A stretch of 64,000 nt of DNA from the NCBI RefSeq assembly GCF_029017505.1, contig NZ_JAQGEI010000002.1, positions 1-64,000 of the forward strand, read 5' to 3'. Source of the DNA: Sedimenticola hydrogenitrophicus (GTDB lineage Bacteria > Pseudomonadota > Gammaproteobacteria > Chromatiales > Chromatiaceae). A program made the translations under genes and the position numbers. Below the pieces are notes generated by a model that was given only the letters and a program-made list of their open reading frames with translations, was not told the origin of the DNA and ran no database searches. Shown one piece after another: positions 14,203 through 58,371 of this stretch (its first letter is position 1; every line of letters starts with the position of its first letter).

Positions 14203-14238
14203 GGCGGGGGAAATGACAGGCAGGGGGGCGTGACAGTT

Positions 14239-14272
14239 GTAGGGTGGATGCGCTGTCGCTTATCCACCCTAC
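14239..14272. repeat. GTAGGGTGGAT hairpin repeat, copy 1
   Basis: An 11-base perfect inverted repeat, GTAGGGTGGAT / ATCCACCCTAC, around GCGCTGTCGCTT. The same unit occurs at 48023-48056, in longer form at 44482-44557, and as a variant at 51663-51693. It lies just after the stop codon of glrR (convergent side). Confidence 0.8.
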
Positions 14273-14315
14273 GAAACCGAAGCAGTTTCACCCGGCAATA
14301 TTAAATTGGAAGACG

Positions 14316-20759: not shown

Positions 20760-21064
20760 GTACTCTGTCAGGGTGATATTGACTAGTTCAGCGCCCCTGT
20801 GGTGTTTCCATCCTCAGGTCCGTAAACGGTGCATCCCTGCACCACTCCTTGCCGCAAGGCGCGTCGTGCAGGCAATGGCCCGGTCCTTGTCAAACGGCGC
20901 AACGCGGCGGCGGGACACCACAGGGGCGCCCTTCGGGTTGGCCTGTCCGCGCCCCTGGCCGTGTTGCGGCTCTTGCAAAGGACCGGGCCATTCGCTGCGA
21001 GCCGCGCCTTGCCAGGAACGCGGACAGGCCAACTGAATACGTCAATATCACCCTGACAGAGTAC
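20760..21064. mobile_element. Nested inverted-repeat element (non-autonomous, MITE-like)
   Basis: A 305-base unit bounded by perfect 24-base inverted repeats (20760-20783 and 21041-21064). Inside are further inverted pairs: 20791-20805 with 20915-20929, 20874-20889 with 20978-20992, and 20940-20951 with 21019-21030. It has no credible ORF. Positions 20806-20849 carry the module shared with the elements at 43206 and 58090, and 20981-21016 resembles part of the element at 61571. I see no clear target duplication. It fills the gap between the DUF482 and GST genes. Confidence 0.75.
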
Positions 21065-41455: not shown

Positions 41456-41466
41456 GCATTTGAGCC

Positions 41467-41609
41467 GAATGGCACTTACTTAAGGCGAATTGCAGGATTT
41501 TCGTCATTCCGGCGCAGGCCGGAATCCAGGAATACCGCCACCATTAAGCAGTCTGGATCCCGGCCTGCGCCAGGATGACGGTGGTTCTTGGCTTAAGTAA
41601 GTGCCATTC
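41467..41609. mobile_element. MITE-like element, copy A
   Basis: A 143-base element with terminal inverted repeats GAATGGCACTTACTTAAG / CTTAAGTAAGTGCCATTC, 18 of 18 bases matching. It is flanked by GCATTTGAGCC (41456-41466) and GCATCTGAGCC (41610-41620), an 11-base target duplication with one change. The interior is a large imperfect hairpin (CGGCGCAGGCCGGAATCC-type arms) without an ORF. In opposite orientation it matches the element at 57991. Confidence 0.85.
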
Positions 41610-41704
41610 GCATCTGAGCCGGAATCAATTCACCCGGCCCGACCGCGATTCTCGCTCTCTTTGTCCTAAATGCCATCCGCTTCCTGACCCCCATAATCTT
41701 TATC

Positions 41705-41858: not shown

Positions 41859-43022
41859 CTATTCCACGCCCCAATACCGGGTGCCGATCGGCTCACCCAG
41901 ATCCGCCTCCACCAGACGCCGCCGCACCTCCAGCAGCCGTTCGATCAGCCGCGGCTCCTTCGCCTCATAGGCATCGGCATCGGGGGTCCGCTTCACCACC
42001 ACCCCCAACAGTTCGGTAATCGCATTGCCGATGGAGTTCTGGCTGATGGTGATGATCAGCCGTCCGCTGTCGTCACGGTAGAGCAGCTGCTTGAACGCCG
42101 GCTGCCAACGGATGGCGTTGGCGTACTTGGCATCGTGGATGCACTGATCCCGCACCTTCTTGGCGGTCTTGAGGAAATCGTTATTGTAGATCAGGGTGTT
42201 CTCGATCTGCTCGGGGAAATAGGCGTCCCGGGGGATCGGCGCATTGCGAGTGGAGACCTGGGTGAAGAAGGTGCGATAGAAGTCGATGAAGCCCATCAGG
42301 ATGGCGTCGTACTCACGCCAGAAGCGGATGTTCTTCAGCACCTCCACGCCGCCCTGCACCTCCCAGCTCGGCAGGCCCTGGGGATAACCGGTGAGTTCGA
42401 GCCGGCAGGTGCCGTCGGTGACCGGACGCAGGATCTGCAGATCCAGCTGGGAGAAGAATTGGTGATAGACATCGTGCATGTAGGCCTGAAACAGGCTGTG
42501 CTGGCCGCCATCGGTGAGATTTGGATTATCCGCATCGGCCAACCGGGCTTCACGCAGCTGCCGCTTGTCGAAAACGATGAAATGGTTGTGCAGCATGCGG
42601 ATGCTCGGCACGCCGGCGGAGGTGAGCGGCCAAGTGGCATCCAGGCTCGCCTCGCCCGCCAGGATCAGCGCCTCGTCGGGATCGGGAAACTGCTCCAGCA
42701 TGTACTCGATCAGCACCTGGTTCATGCGATTCCAGACATGCTTCACCTGGTCCGGCACCTGGGTGCGGCGCACCGGCCGACCCAGTGGATCGAGGATACA
42801 GTTGGAGGTGTTGTAGATGATCGAGGCGTCGAAATCGTTGCTGTGGCCCAGCGCCTTGCGATAGAGCAGCAGGTTCTCCGGATTCACCAGCAGGCCGTTG
42901 TTGTGCACCAGGTCATTGAGGTTCTCGGTGCTGTTGAAGAACTCGTTCGGCATCATCCCCTCCGGCACCTCCAGGGGTATCGGACGGAACGGGGTTTCGA
43001 TCTCGCGCGGACCTGACTGCAT
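41859..43022 (-). CDS. Conserved-looking protein of unknown family, 387 residues
   Basis: A soluble protein starting at ATG 43022 with GAGGTGAAGG upstream. No signal peptide or membrane segment. It has several His-bearing segments (S-I-R-M-L-H-N-H-F-I-V-F around residue 145 and Q-A-Y-M-H-D-V-Y-H-Q-F-F around 185) and an N-rich start (N-D-L-V-H-N-N-G-L-L-V-N). The HNH-F-I-V-F segment loosely recalls HIT/GalT-type nucleotidyltransferases, but I would not assign it. Codon use is like that of its neighbours. It stands alone between two stretches of repeats. Confidence 0.7.
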   Translation of the reverse strand: MQSGPREIETPFRPIPLEVPEGMMPNEFFNSTENLNDLVHNNGLLVNPENLLLYRKALGHSNDFDASIIYNTSNCILDPLGRPVRRTQVPDQVKHVWNRMNQVLIEYMLEQFPDPDEALILAGEASLDATWPLTSAGVPSIRMLHNHFIVFDKRQLREARLADADNPNLTDGGQHSLFQAYMHDVYHQFFSQLDLQILRPVTDGTCRLELTGYPQGLPSWEVQGGVEVLKNIRFWREYDAILMGFIDFYRTFFTQVSTRNAPIPRDAYFPEQIENTLIYNNDFLKTAKKVRDQCIHDAKYANAIRWQPAFKQLLYRDDSGRLIITISQNSIGNAITELLGVVVKRTPDADAYEAKEPRLIERLLEVRRRLVEADLGEPIGTRYWGVE

Positions 43023-43169
43023 GGCCTTCACCTCGGTAGCAATATTCTGTTTATATGGTTATAAGTTATTGAAATAACTAACTTTTCAACATATTCACAG
43101 GCATCATAGAGCAACAGGCAAGATAAGCAAGTCATGCTATTCGCCAATGGTTTATTTCCAGTTATATAC

Positions 43170-43413
43170 GAATGGCACTAAGTTAAGGCAGGAATCCATT
43201 TTTTCGTCATTCCATCCTTTGGTCCGTAACCGGTGCATCCATGCACCACTTCTCCGGCGCAGGCCGGACAAAAGCGCGAAGCGCGTTGAACGACTGAAAG
43301 TCGGCCCGAAGGGTGAGCGAAGCGAATCATCCATGAATTCACTGCGGATGCGGGTTCTGGATCCCGGCATTCGCCGGGATGACGGAAGCTCTGGGCTTAA
43401 CTTAGTGCCATTC
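43170..43413. mobile_element. MITE-like element, copy B
   Basis: A 244-base element with perfect 18-base ends GAATGGCACTAAGTTAAG / CTTAACTTAGTGCCATTC, flanked on both sides by the exact 10-base duplication AGTTATATAC (43160-43169 and 43414-43423). The ends differ from copy A only in the TTACTT/AAGTTA region, so it is a subfamily. Its interior holds the module at 43206-43255 shared with the elements at 20806 and 58090, and a second hairpin (GATCCCGGCATTCGCCGGGATGA-like). It has no coding potential. Confidence 0.88.
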
Positions 43414-43455
43414 AGTTATATACCAGTTAGGTGTTGCATGAGGGGCAGTGCTTTT

Positions 43456-43477
43456 GTAGGAGTGGCTTTGCCACGAA
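43456..43477. repeat. Short REP-like hairpin (GTAGGAGTGGC)
   Basis: GTAGGAGTGGCTTTGCCACG contains the inner stem GTGGC/GCCAC. It resembles the common gammaproteobacterial GTAGGAG repeat, as does 14155-14202. It lies between MITE copy B and the DUF2461 gene; nothing else is seen in the gap. Confidence 0.5.
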
Positions 43478-43630
43478 AACCTTCGCGCCAGAGGCCCTAC
43501 TACGGGGTGATTCACCAAGCCTGATAACACCAACAACTAACTCAGACATAGCCTTTTTTCCGCCGCGTGCAAGAGGATACAGGCAGGAACCTGCCGCCCG
43601 GAGCCGGGCGGTCGCCTGGGTGACGGCGGA

Positions 43631-44320
43631 TCAGTAGTTGACGTTGATCGCGGTACAGAGATAGCGCATGAAGGGGTCGGTGCGGTGAAAATCCTTCAGC
43701 ACCGACTGGGGGAACCGGGGCGAGTGGATCGCCGCCGGTTCGATCGGCTTGATGGCGATGAAGTCCTTTCTTTTCAGATCCTCGATCAGCGGGTGATCGG
43801 CAGCGAAGCCGCGTGGCGGCCGCTTCAGGCTGTCGCCCTCCAGGTTGAACTCGCGGGCGAAGGCGGGCGCCTGCAGCGCCTTCCTCCAGGCCGCCGGGTT
43901 GTCGTCCATGAAACCGCGGATCTGGCCCAGGGTCTTTGACTCCGGGTGCCAAATGCCGGCGCCGACAAAACAACCCTCCGGTTCGATGTGCAGATAGAAG
44001 CCGGGGGCGTGGATATCCTTGCCCAGCGCATGGCGGAACTGGATGCCGATGTTGGTCTTGTAGGGGGTCTTGTCGCTGGCGAAGCGGGTATCGCGGTAGA
44101 CCCGCATCAGCGAGCCGCCCACCTTCTTCGGTATGGCGCGGAAATGGGGCGAGATCTCCGCCAGTCCGCCGGCCATGGATTCGATGAGGGCCAGCGCCGG
44201 CTCCCGGACCAGCGCCTCGTAACGGGGCTTGTTGTCGTTGAACCAGGTCTTGTTGTTGTTCGCCTTGAGTTCACCGAGAAACATCAGGGTGGCTTCGGGA
44301 AAACCGTTGAACCGGGCCAT
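43631..44320 (-). CDS. DUF2461 family protein
   Basis: A 229-residue protein of the DUF2461 (TIGR02453) family. Recognised by L-M-F-L-G-E-L-K-A-N-N-N-K-T-W-F-N-D-N-K near the start, R-V-Y-R-D-T-R-F-A-S-D-K-T-P-Y-K-T-N-I-G and F-Y-L-H-I-E-P-E-G-C-F-V-G-A-G. No biochemical function is established. The start ATG has a strong AAGGAGG site. No operon partners. Confidence 0.88.
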   Translation of the reverse strand: MARFNGFPEATLMFLGELKANNNKTWFNDNKPRYEALVREPALALIESMAGGLAEISPHFRAIPKKVGGSLMRVYRDTRFASDKTPYKTNIGIQFRHALGKDIHAPGFYLHIEPEGCFVGAGIWHPESKTLGQIRGFMDDNPAAWRKALQAPAFAREFNLEGDSLKRPPRGFAADHPLIEDLKRKDFIAIKPIEPAAIHSPRFPQSVLKDFHRTDPFMRYLCTAINVNY

Positions 44321-44429: not shown

Positions 44430-44602
44430 AGTTCCCAGGTAAAACCCAACTCTAGTACTACTTCAATTTGATAAATTGCTTTCGTAGGGTGGATAAGCCG
44501 GTAGGCGCATCCACCGCGGAAATGGTGGATGCGCTGTCGCTTATCCACCCTACGAAACTGACTCCGACCCCTGACTAGTTCCCAGGTAAAACCCAACTCT
44601 AG
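44430..44602. repeat. Direct repeats bracketing a GTAGGGTGGAT hairpin
   Basis: Two identical 26-base direct repeats (44430-44455 and 44577-44602, beginning AGTTCCCAGGTAAAACCC), each preceded by GACTCCGACCCC, enclose a long form of the GTAGGGTGGAT hairpin (44482-44557). This looks like one repeat unit inserted into, or recombined with, another. No gene is present between 44321 and 44610. Confidence 0.75.
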
Positions 44603-47917: not shown

Positions 47918-48022
47918 GAATTTCGCAAACTCGTCTGTTCGGTATAAAGTGGCGGGTATTGAACCGTTATCATGGCCAGCGCCGCAATACTGGTGCTAGT
48001 TCAATTTGATAATGTACTTTTG

Positions 48023-48056
48023 TAGGGTGGATGCGCTGTCGCTTATCCACCCTACG
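48023..48056. repeat. GTAGGGTGGAT hairpin repeat, copy 3
   Basis: The same 34-base hairpin as at 14239-14272, base for base. The sequence to its left (TTCAATTTGATAA) also matches that before the 44482 copy. It lies in the shared upstream region of midA-like and pteridine reductase genes. Confidence 0.8.
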
Positions 48057-48113
48057 AAACTGGCCTAGTCTAGCAGGACAGAGGGTAGAGCAAAAATCGA
48101 GGGAGAACCAGCC

Positions 48114-56760: not shown

Positions 56761-57015
56761 ATGGCATCGTTCACCAAGCTCAAGTCCGGCAAATGGCGCG
56801 CTCAGGTCCGCAAGGATGGCGTCTACACCAGCAAGACCTTCACCACAAAGACGGCCGCCAAGACCTGGGCGCAACGCACCGAGGTAGCCATCGAGACAGG
56901 TGATTACCAGACGGCGCAGGTCCAGCTGCCTACCCTCGGCAAGCTCCTGGACCGCTACGAGACCGAATTCACCGCCCGGAAGAAGAGCAACAAGGCAGAG
57001 CGTTCACGTCTGCGC
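56761..57015 (+). pseudogene. Tyrosine-recombinase (integrase) fragment, N-terminal part only
   Basis: ATG at 56761 with AAGGGGAGATCC upstream starts a frame reading M-A-S-F-T-K-L-K-S-G-K-W-R-A-Q-V-R-K-D-G and T-W-A-Q-R-T-E-V-A-I-E-T-G-D-Y, the arm-binding and start of the core-binding domain of phage/ICE integrases. Resemblance ends near R-S-R-L-R-T (57015), after about 85 codons; the frame then runs on by chance to 57348. The catalytic domain (R...HxxR...Y) is missing. It lies 228 bases after the tRNA, the standard place for an integrase using that tRNA as att site. Confidence 0.8.
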
Positions 57016-57298
57016 ACCGGGGAGTACCCACCAGACTCGCCGTACCGCCCGGTGGGTTGTTGCCTGCCAGAGGGTCAAACCCGTCGGCACTCTCCATTTG
57101 ATTTTTTCGGGGCTTTGCGCCTTCAGGGTCGGCTCAACCCGTTACCTTTGCACCTCGCCTGCTTTCGTACCTACGCATCAACCGTACCGTTACCGCTACG
57201 GCTGCAAGGCTCGATACCGGGCACGTGGCTAGCGCTTACCCGGGCGGGAGTCTCACCCGCTAGAATGTGCGGCATTGCCAAGCCGCTGCTGACCCCAA
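57016..57298. other. Structured non-coding segment between two truncated genes
   Basis: This 283-base segment separates the cut integrase (left) from the cut PIN gene (right). It starts with hairpin ACCCACC/GGTGGGT (57026-57057) and ends in a nested stem (CTAGCG...CGCTAG and GCGGG/CCCGC, about 57229-57263). No convincing coding frame was found. It may be the remnant of another mobile element or a structured RNA gene. I could not identify it. Confidence 0.5.
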
Positions 57299-57864: not shown

Positions 57865-57990
57865 CGTCGCGTTCCTTCTGTCTCCTTTAGAATAGCCTAA
57901 TCGAAATAAACGCAATTCGCAATAAATGAAACAAGTGGTCCAACCAGCCGGTTGATCACAATTCGGGGTAAGAGAAAAAGGGGACGGATT

Positions 57991-58185
57991 GAATGGCACT
58001 TACTTAAGCAAAGAACCACCGTCATCCCGGCGCAGGCCGGGATCCAGACTGCTTAATGGTGGCGGTATTCCTGGATTCCGGCCTGCGCCGGAGAAGTGGT
58101 GCAGGGATGCACCGATTACGGACCTAAGGATGGAATGACGATCCACTTACTTTCACGGGAATAGACTGCCTAAGTAAGTGCATTC
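57991..58185. mobile_element. MITE-like element, copy C
   Basis: A 195-base element with ends GAATGGCACTTACTTAAG and CCTAAGTAAGTGCATTC (one base lost, one changed), flanked by exact 10-base duplications GGGACGGATT (57981-57990 and 58186-58195). The left 90 bases match copy A (41467) in reverse orientation; 58090-58140 holds the module shared with 43206 and 20806. It lies between the excisionase-type antitoxin and vapBC, so the island received it after assembly. Confidence 0.88.
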
Positions 58186-58371
58186 GGGACGGATTTATTT
58201 TTACACGTTCAATATTTTCGAATTTGTTAAAAACCACACTCACCGAACCGGAGCTAAGGCCTGAGCGACGCGCTACTGGATCCGGATATAGAGCGCTCCG
58301 TGGTTCTTTGTTGATCGTGCGCCAGCAGCTTATAAGCGGCCTCGAAGCCTAGCTCGCAGGCAAGCAAAGGC

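Follow-up and report, generated by a model that had tools for sequence, protein, structure and literature searches.

A gene-less element with IS4-type ends around a pair of CGTC-tagged REP palindromes in Sedimenticola hydrogenitrophicus

The 244 bp element called copy B, which occupies positions 43170–43413 of the 64,000-nucleotide stretch of contig NZ_JAQGEI010000002.1 analysed here (the window), is very probably a MITE moved in trans by a transposase of the IS4 family, subgroup IS4. It was delimited by perfect 18 bp inverted ends, GAATGGCACTAAGTTAAG, and the exact 10 bp duplication AGTTATATAC was present on either side (Table 1). The preliminary description of this DNA had reported this exact flanking, and its coordinates were verified; the range of 43160–43423 given there for copy B takes in both duplication copies. 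The core of the ends was ACTAAGTTAAG in copy B and ACTTACTTAAG in the two other copies of the window, A and C, at the places where they had been described, and the coordinated difference between the ends of B and those of A and C, on both sides, was thus confirmed. The window contained six matches to the end cores at up to one mismatch, with 0.23 expected. Copy B has no coding capacity and is shorter than the limit of about 300 bp for a MITE. The sole open reading frame of at least 80 amino acids found over it in a mechanical search (43147–43524) crosses both ends into the surrounding repeat R2. No promoter or terminator was found in a scan of positions 43000–43700. The single-strand fold over the region was strong (z of −6.6), as is expected from the inverted ends and the palindromes, and it is not counted as evidence of RNA function.

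Table 1. Positions in the window of the parts of copy B, of the repeat R2 that surrounds it and of copies A and C.
Feature	Positions	Strand	Remarks
Left target duplication copy AGTTATATAC, 10 bp	43160–43169	+	doubles as the outermost 10 bases of an R2 end
Left terminal inverted repeat GAATGGCACTAAGTTAAG, type b	43170–43187	+	18/18 with both IS ends in L165, L284, L300
Palindrome 1 start, CGTC-tagged, CGTCATTCC	43205–43213	+	rest at 43256–43268 and 43329–43333, X and Y inserted
Module X, 42 bp, in palindrome 1 stem	43214–43255	+	core: 124 genome-wide matches at ≤3 mismatches
Module Y, 60 bp, between CCGGA and ATCCA of palindrome 1	43269–43328	+	core: 32 genome-wide matches at ≤3 mismatches
Palindrome 2, CGTC-tagged: CGTC, 8 bp stem, 4 nt loop GAAT, CCA tail	43358–43384	−	
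Right terminal inverted repeat, type b	43396–43413	−	
Right target duplication copy, 10 bp	43414–43423	+	
Host repeat R2, second inverted-repeat element, MITE-like, ends of GGCTATATACCAGTTAG type	43160–43553	+	about 140 bp after removal of B and one copy of the duplication
Copy A, 143 bp, ends of type a	41467–41609	+	11 bp duplication 41456–41466 / 41610–41620, 1 mismatch
Copy C, 195 bp, ends of type a, the right one imperfect	57991–58185	−	10 bp duplication GGGACGGATT, 57981–57990 / 58186–58195

The pattern of the ends had 153 matches in the whole genome at up to two mismatches, and the reversed pattern had none. The window and 73 fetched stretches (the listed end matches and the places found by BLAST) yielded 60 end pairs, of which a spurious one of 349 bp was removed; the resulting 59 pairs are a lower bound for the genome. 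In the 57 pairs with full flanks, a duplication of 10 or 11 bp was exact in 23 cases, within one mismatch in 36 and within two mismatches in 45, whereas 500 shuffles of the flanks gave means of 0.39, 0.86 and 2.18, respectively (maxima of three exact and four at up to one mismatch). The longest exact duplication measured 11 bp in 15 pairs, 10 bp in eight and 9 bp in one. The duplicated target leaned to a core TCNGA, the C at position 5 and the G at position 7 each being present in 14 of the 15 exact 11-mers. Copy A was flanked by GCATTTGAGCC and GCATCTGAGCC. The right end of copy C, ACTTACTTAGG, has lost one G of GGCAC, and GGGACGGATT is found on both of its sides once the lost end base is allowed for. 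The duplication script ignores this loss and scores copy C as non-matching, which places it among the 12 of 57 pairs with no duplication within two mismatches at either length. Domains of a group II intron (RF02005, 123 bits) were observed directly before copy C, at 57006–57253 on the minus strand. Other copies with flanking duplications, whose absence would have counted against the preliminary description, thus exist (the 36 pairs above), and the genome-wide survey of copy number and duplication length that it had called for gives at least 59 pairs, mostly with 10–11 bp, and points to the IS4 family for the helper.

Copy B is inserted 10 bases inside one end of R2, so that its duplication is the R2 terminus, and the remaining part of R2 lies downstream. 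The intact R2 copy L402 showed an exact 8 bp duplication; other R2 copies had one to three mismatches under the same boundaries, or were interrupted. R2 ends were occupied in the same manner by five of the 60 IS4-ended pairs, of both a and b types. In the sister genome G117 the orthologous site was devoid of R2 and B together, with flanks that were 95.8% and 96.2% identical. R2 and the loci L402, L403 and L407 all present an inverted-repeat element beside T-runs. The interior of R2 looks like a pair of GTAG-tagged REPs, so R2 may offer another example of REPs framed by a transposon.

The end types were assigned from the inner nine bases. Eight of the 59 pairs were b/b, the type of copy B, two were c/c (TTAGTTAAG), one was a/c, and the rest were a or tied with a. 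No clear b end was paired with an a or c end in any of the 59; a single end tied between a and b. Exact duplications were more common in the b copies (7 of 8, compared to 16 of 49 for the others; Fisher p = 0.005), and these leaned to 10 bp over 11 bp (5 of 7, compared to 3 of 16; p = 0.026), both p values being uncorrected for multiple tests. The difference between a and b ends most likely marks subfamilies with separate helper lineages. It had been proposed that the ends are kept matched because the transposase reads both. The eight b/b pairs, and the lack of clear mixed pairs with b, agree with this proposal. The b copies share their own subterminal and linker sequences, so the matching may partly be co-inheritance. 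Nor is it strict or universal, since the left and right ends of three related autonomous IS4-family ISs (L246, L247 and L248) are clearly unlike. These three ISs could be used to ask if different parts of the transposase read each end.

One useful mosaic, a single case at C9:86394, combined a ends with a b linker, which implies that the interiors can be exchanged without the ends. This mosaic interior, together with the 12 of 57 pairs that lack a duplication, would favour recombination between homologous repeats, or gene conversion, in place of transposition as the way in which the copies spread. Such a spread is scarcely believable, because differing flanks, each with its own duplication, and the empty orthologous site are the marks of transposition products. 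Gene conversion may well reshuffle the interiors in addition to the transposition that we favour.

According to Table 1 of PMC2266710, the hallmarks of subgroup IS4 are ends of the form -AATR--------WTW, duplications of 10–13 bp and a size of 1400–1650 bp. The sequence GAATGGCACTAAGTTAAG fits this pattern at each position. With the subgroup as it is presented there, copy B has in common the end pattern and a duplication of about one helix turn, and its autonomous partners the YREK motif, the DDE residues and the IS size; copy B differs by having no transposase gene. The same ends, at up to one mismatch, were present in 72 of the 194 same-family genomes searched, the host genome being counted. 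Full-length ISs with b ends were found in G144 (L165 and L166), in a gammaproteobacterial MAG (L284) and in the Olavius algarvensis Gamma 3 symbiont (L300), and those of L165, L284 and L300 have both ends identical to the ends of copy B (Table 1). Full-length ISs with a ends were found in G144, G020, G024 and G138. When read by eye, the duplications of these ISs were of 11 bp, exact in L167, L168, L169 and L171 and with one differing base in L166; none was seen in L170 and L165, the latter being the b-type IS nearest in kinship. In two IS4-ended elements (L300, 1322–2875, and L064, near C1:129871), the same 10–11 bp word flanked the element in inverted and not direct orientation, a pattern that the inversion of a segment by recombination between two copies could leave.

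The transposase of L165 and three a-type transposases scored 213–222 bits against the NCBIfam model NF033592 (transpos_IS4_1), for a cut-off of 115, and Pfam DDE_Tnp_1 matched the scanned transposases above its cut-off. The YREK motif (Y364, R367, E371, K378) and the presumed catalytic D, D and E, with D177 and D253, were invariant across five aligned transposases. The spacing in L165, counted from the positions, was D-75-D-117-E, which fits D(60–110)D(100–150)E, as the YREK positions fit Y(2)R(3)E(6)K, the choice of the catalytic D residues being our reading of the alignment. A sequence search for solved structures of the transposase gave no match at an E value of 0.01. In a tree of 22 transposases, six of the seven associated with AAGTTAAG ends (type b) were grouped in one clade (support 100/99; two of these six with one end read), separate from the transposases with TTACTTAAG ends. 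The seventh, L417, has AAGTTAAG-type ends too; its long branch attached outside this clade, and the tree tool cautioned that long branches can be joined wrongly. When the long-branch sequences L417 and L263 were omitted, five of five b rows stood apart from the 15 others (100/100).

Copy B shares only 18–23 bp per end with the b-type ISs. BLAST comparison with eight IS loci matched the ends, over 17–23 bp, and otherwise only short pieces at chance level, with the exception of L243, where a neighbouring MITE was matched. The interior of copy B holds no recognisable IS remnant. An alignment search at 1e-30 returned no helper transposase in the host draft assembly, whereas 38 of the 194 family genomes had a match at this threshold, partial ones included. 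The lone DDE_Tnp_1 match of the host genome was rejected as the helper; it is an IS1380-type protein and its 3.7 kb locus has no matching ends. Five loci with one clear end (L069, L088, L094, L132 and L133) were inspected by eye for a long IS and showed no transposase-like frame. The draft is made of 116 contigs, several with a start or stop no more than about 140 bases away from an end of this kind, so that a multicopy IS could be absent from it. The sister genome G117 possesses an intact transposase frame of 493 amino acids (IS L243) with c ends (GCTACTTAGTTAAG), not b. A helper in the same genome, which is a usual though not strictly defining attribute of MITEs, is therefore not seen in the draft assembly. 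We infer that copy B was mobilised in trans, by a cut-and-paste chemistry like that known for IS4-family elements, and that its helper has either disappeared from the genome or escaped the assembly. The insertion had been called recent: the empty site in G117 and the more frequent exact duplications of the b copies are in favour of this, in a relative sense only, and the lack of a helper in the assembly is against it.

MITEs that share just their inverted repeats with an IS are described in PMC3852290, which lists for Haloquadratum walsbyi an IS4-related MITE of 237 bp, with 34 copies and 5 bp duplications. The copy B family resembles the prokaryotic MITEs treated there in being short and gene-less, with IS ends and tens of copies. 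It differs from the H. walsbyi element by its 10–11 bp duplications, by its REP-pair core and by the 42 and 60 bp modules that set its length.

Two CGTC-tagged REP palindromes in inverted arrangement form the core of copy B, and two modules, X and Y, are inserted in this pair. Palindrome 2 reads CGTC-ATCCCGGC-GAAT-GCCGGGAT-CCA and corresponds to the definition of the CGTC-1 REPs in PMC3733652 (a CGTC tag, an 8 bp stem beginning with AT, a 4 nt loop and a CCA tail), with which the arrangement as inverted pairs is also shared. The difference from the CGTC-1 REPs, as that source presents them, is that most of the pairs examined here lie inside transposon-type ends with target duplications. The length of the elements amounted to a base of about 135 bp (terminal GAAT excluded on both sides), plus 42 bp per X and 60 bp per Y. 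After subtraction of X and Y, the residual length of the 59 copies was 133–136 bp in 44, 84–85 bp, corresponding to one palindrome, in five, and neither in ten. In the copies that were read, X was inside a palindrome stem and Y at the foot of a palindrome, GGA^ATCC. A slightly different pattern counted 37 X and 24 Y inside the 59 elements; with 124 matches genome-wide against these 37, X is mainly an independent repeat. X was nested in X at L111 (C28:64046) and L062 (C1:64322), and L111 also contained a tandem repeat of a 14 bp X unit. At positions 20760–21064 of the window, an inverted-repeat structure (arms 20760–20800 and 21024–21064) surrounds one copy of module X together with an inner inverted pair, and the sequence around X in L200 is similar to it. 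A 41 bp repeat with GTAGGGTGGATGCGCTGTCGCTTATCCACCCTAC is present in the window at 14237–14277, 44518–44558 and 48020–48060, and a related motif was seen near other loci.

The REP-like interior of copy B, and the eight Y1_Tnp matches of the host genome (six over the Pfam cut-off), could suggest that RAYT tyrosine transposases mobilise the unit through its REP palindromes and that the IS4-like ends are incidental. This is very unlikely, as the 10–11 bp duplications sit exactly outside the IS4-type ends, full IS4 ISs have the identical end type, and, of the eight loci with a Y1_Tnp match, only L255 and L250 (the latter a neighbouring IS4-ended copy) contained X, Y or CGTC sequence. A link of X, Y or the palindromes to RAYT was accordingly rejected, no convincing association being seen at these eight loci. 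Mobilisation by an IS4-type transposase remains our preferred reading.

We then counted what surrounds the CGTC palindromes in this genome. The palindrome pattern had 114 matches at up to three mismatches, of which 100 were used, giving 72 loci, 71 of them with sequence. Among these 71 loci (100 of the 114 matches), IS4-type ends were present on both sides in 51 and on one side in five. A second frame, F2 (TAGTGTCCATCCAGAAAC), was found on both sides in five loci and on one side in one, and a third, F3 (CCTGATTAG...GTCAGC), on both sides in six; three loci were unframed. Altogether, 62 of the 71 loci lie between two ends of one of these three unlike frames. At 600 positions drawn at random from the window, the same loose tests detected no two-sided frame; one-sided ones numbered nine (IS4), seven (F2) and zero (F3). 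The census describes the host genome and is no independent test, because the frame patterns were written after some of the loci had been viewed. The F2 copies showed exact 4 bp duplications in five of five readable cases, one being unreadable, and the F3 copies exact 8 bp duplications in five of six. On the basis of these duplications, F2 and F3 are probably ends of DDE ISs. L090 (C13:3407) is an IS4-ended element holding parts of the F2 frame, and at L452 an F2-like piece stands beside an IS4-framed pair; at these two loci MITE families are nested in or adjoin one another.

Beyond the family, a scan of a contig collection for the exact b end gave at least 118 loci, including at least 53 short two-ended elements. 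The duplications of these 53 were exact in 28 and within one mismatch in 37, as compared to 0.09 and 0.36 in shuffles. Their interiors fell into at least 32 groups (BLAST E value of 1e-5, at least 30 bp). The record titles among the listed elements with duplications named Gammaproteobacteria, Nostoc, Anabaena, Verrucomicrobiales, Chthoniobacter, Pontiellaceae, Ghiorsea and Terriglobia; many of these records are MAGs, and single ones may be misbinned. Outside the host genome, CGTC pairs are mostly not what IS4-type ends carry, as the pattern used detected a CGTC repeat in only 6 of the 53 short elements.

In its treatment of CGTC-tagged REPs, PMC3733652 reports them from five phyla, with no transposase assignable, and leaves their spread open. 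It describes CGTC-1 dimers of Halothiobacillus neapolitanus within longer palindromes, which are interpreted as targets. Applied to the present elements, this would mean that REPs were inserted into pre-existing palindromic targets and that the IS4-like ends are target and not transposon. We find this highly improbable: the outer palindromes are identical to the ends of autonomous ISs, the target duplications are outside them, and the same ends frame at least 32 interior groups in other genomes. Our reading of the outer palindromes as transposon ends rests on the position of the duplications, beyond them, and on their presence in full ISs. Among the papers retrieved from the open-licence literature, no title or start of an abstract described the copy B element or CGTC pairs inside IS4-type ends.

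We propose the following sequence of events. A full-length IS of the b lineage would supply the transposase, which would putatively bind the 18 bp ends of copy B and, as may be expected for the IS4 family, cut the element out. Its joining to a target cut with a stagger of about one helix turn would produce the 10–11 bp duplications. The REP pair inside copy B itself received X (42 bp) and Y (60 bp), and copy B in turn inserted into the end of R2, a third repeat. The b helper would have been lost from the host genome, or it may be missing in its assembly.

Two features go beyond an ordinary MITE: end type is linked to transposase clade, and CGTC REP pairs are packaged in several transposon frames. 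In a wider model, to which we give an even chance, CGTC REP pairs would need no transposase of their own and would travel as the cores of MITEs, inside ends from several unrelated DDE ISs (IS4-type with 10–11 bp duplications, and two frames with 4 and 8 bp); more broadly, IS4-type ends of 17–18 bp would be an interchangeable frame that collects short local sequence in several bacterial phyla. The two end types, tied to two transposase clades, form a data set for studying how IS4 transposases recognise their own ends as opposed to those of relatives. The 32 or more interior groups found elsewhere suggest that an IS4-type end of about 18 bp may suffice to mobilise unrelated short DNA. The travelling of CGTC REPs inside borrowed ends would be a testable answer to the question of their missing dedicated transposase, and a mobilisation test would be simple.
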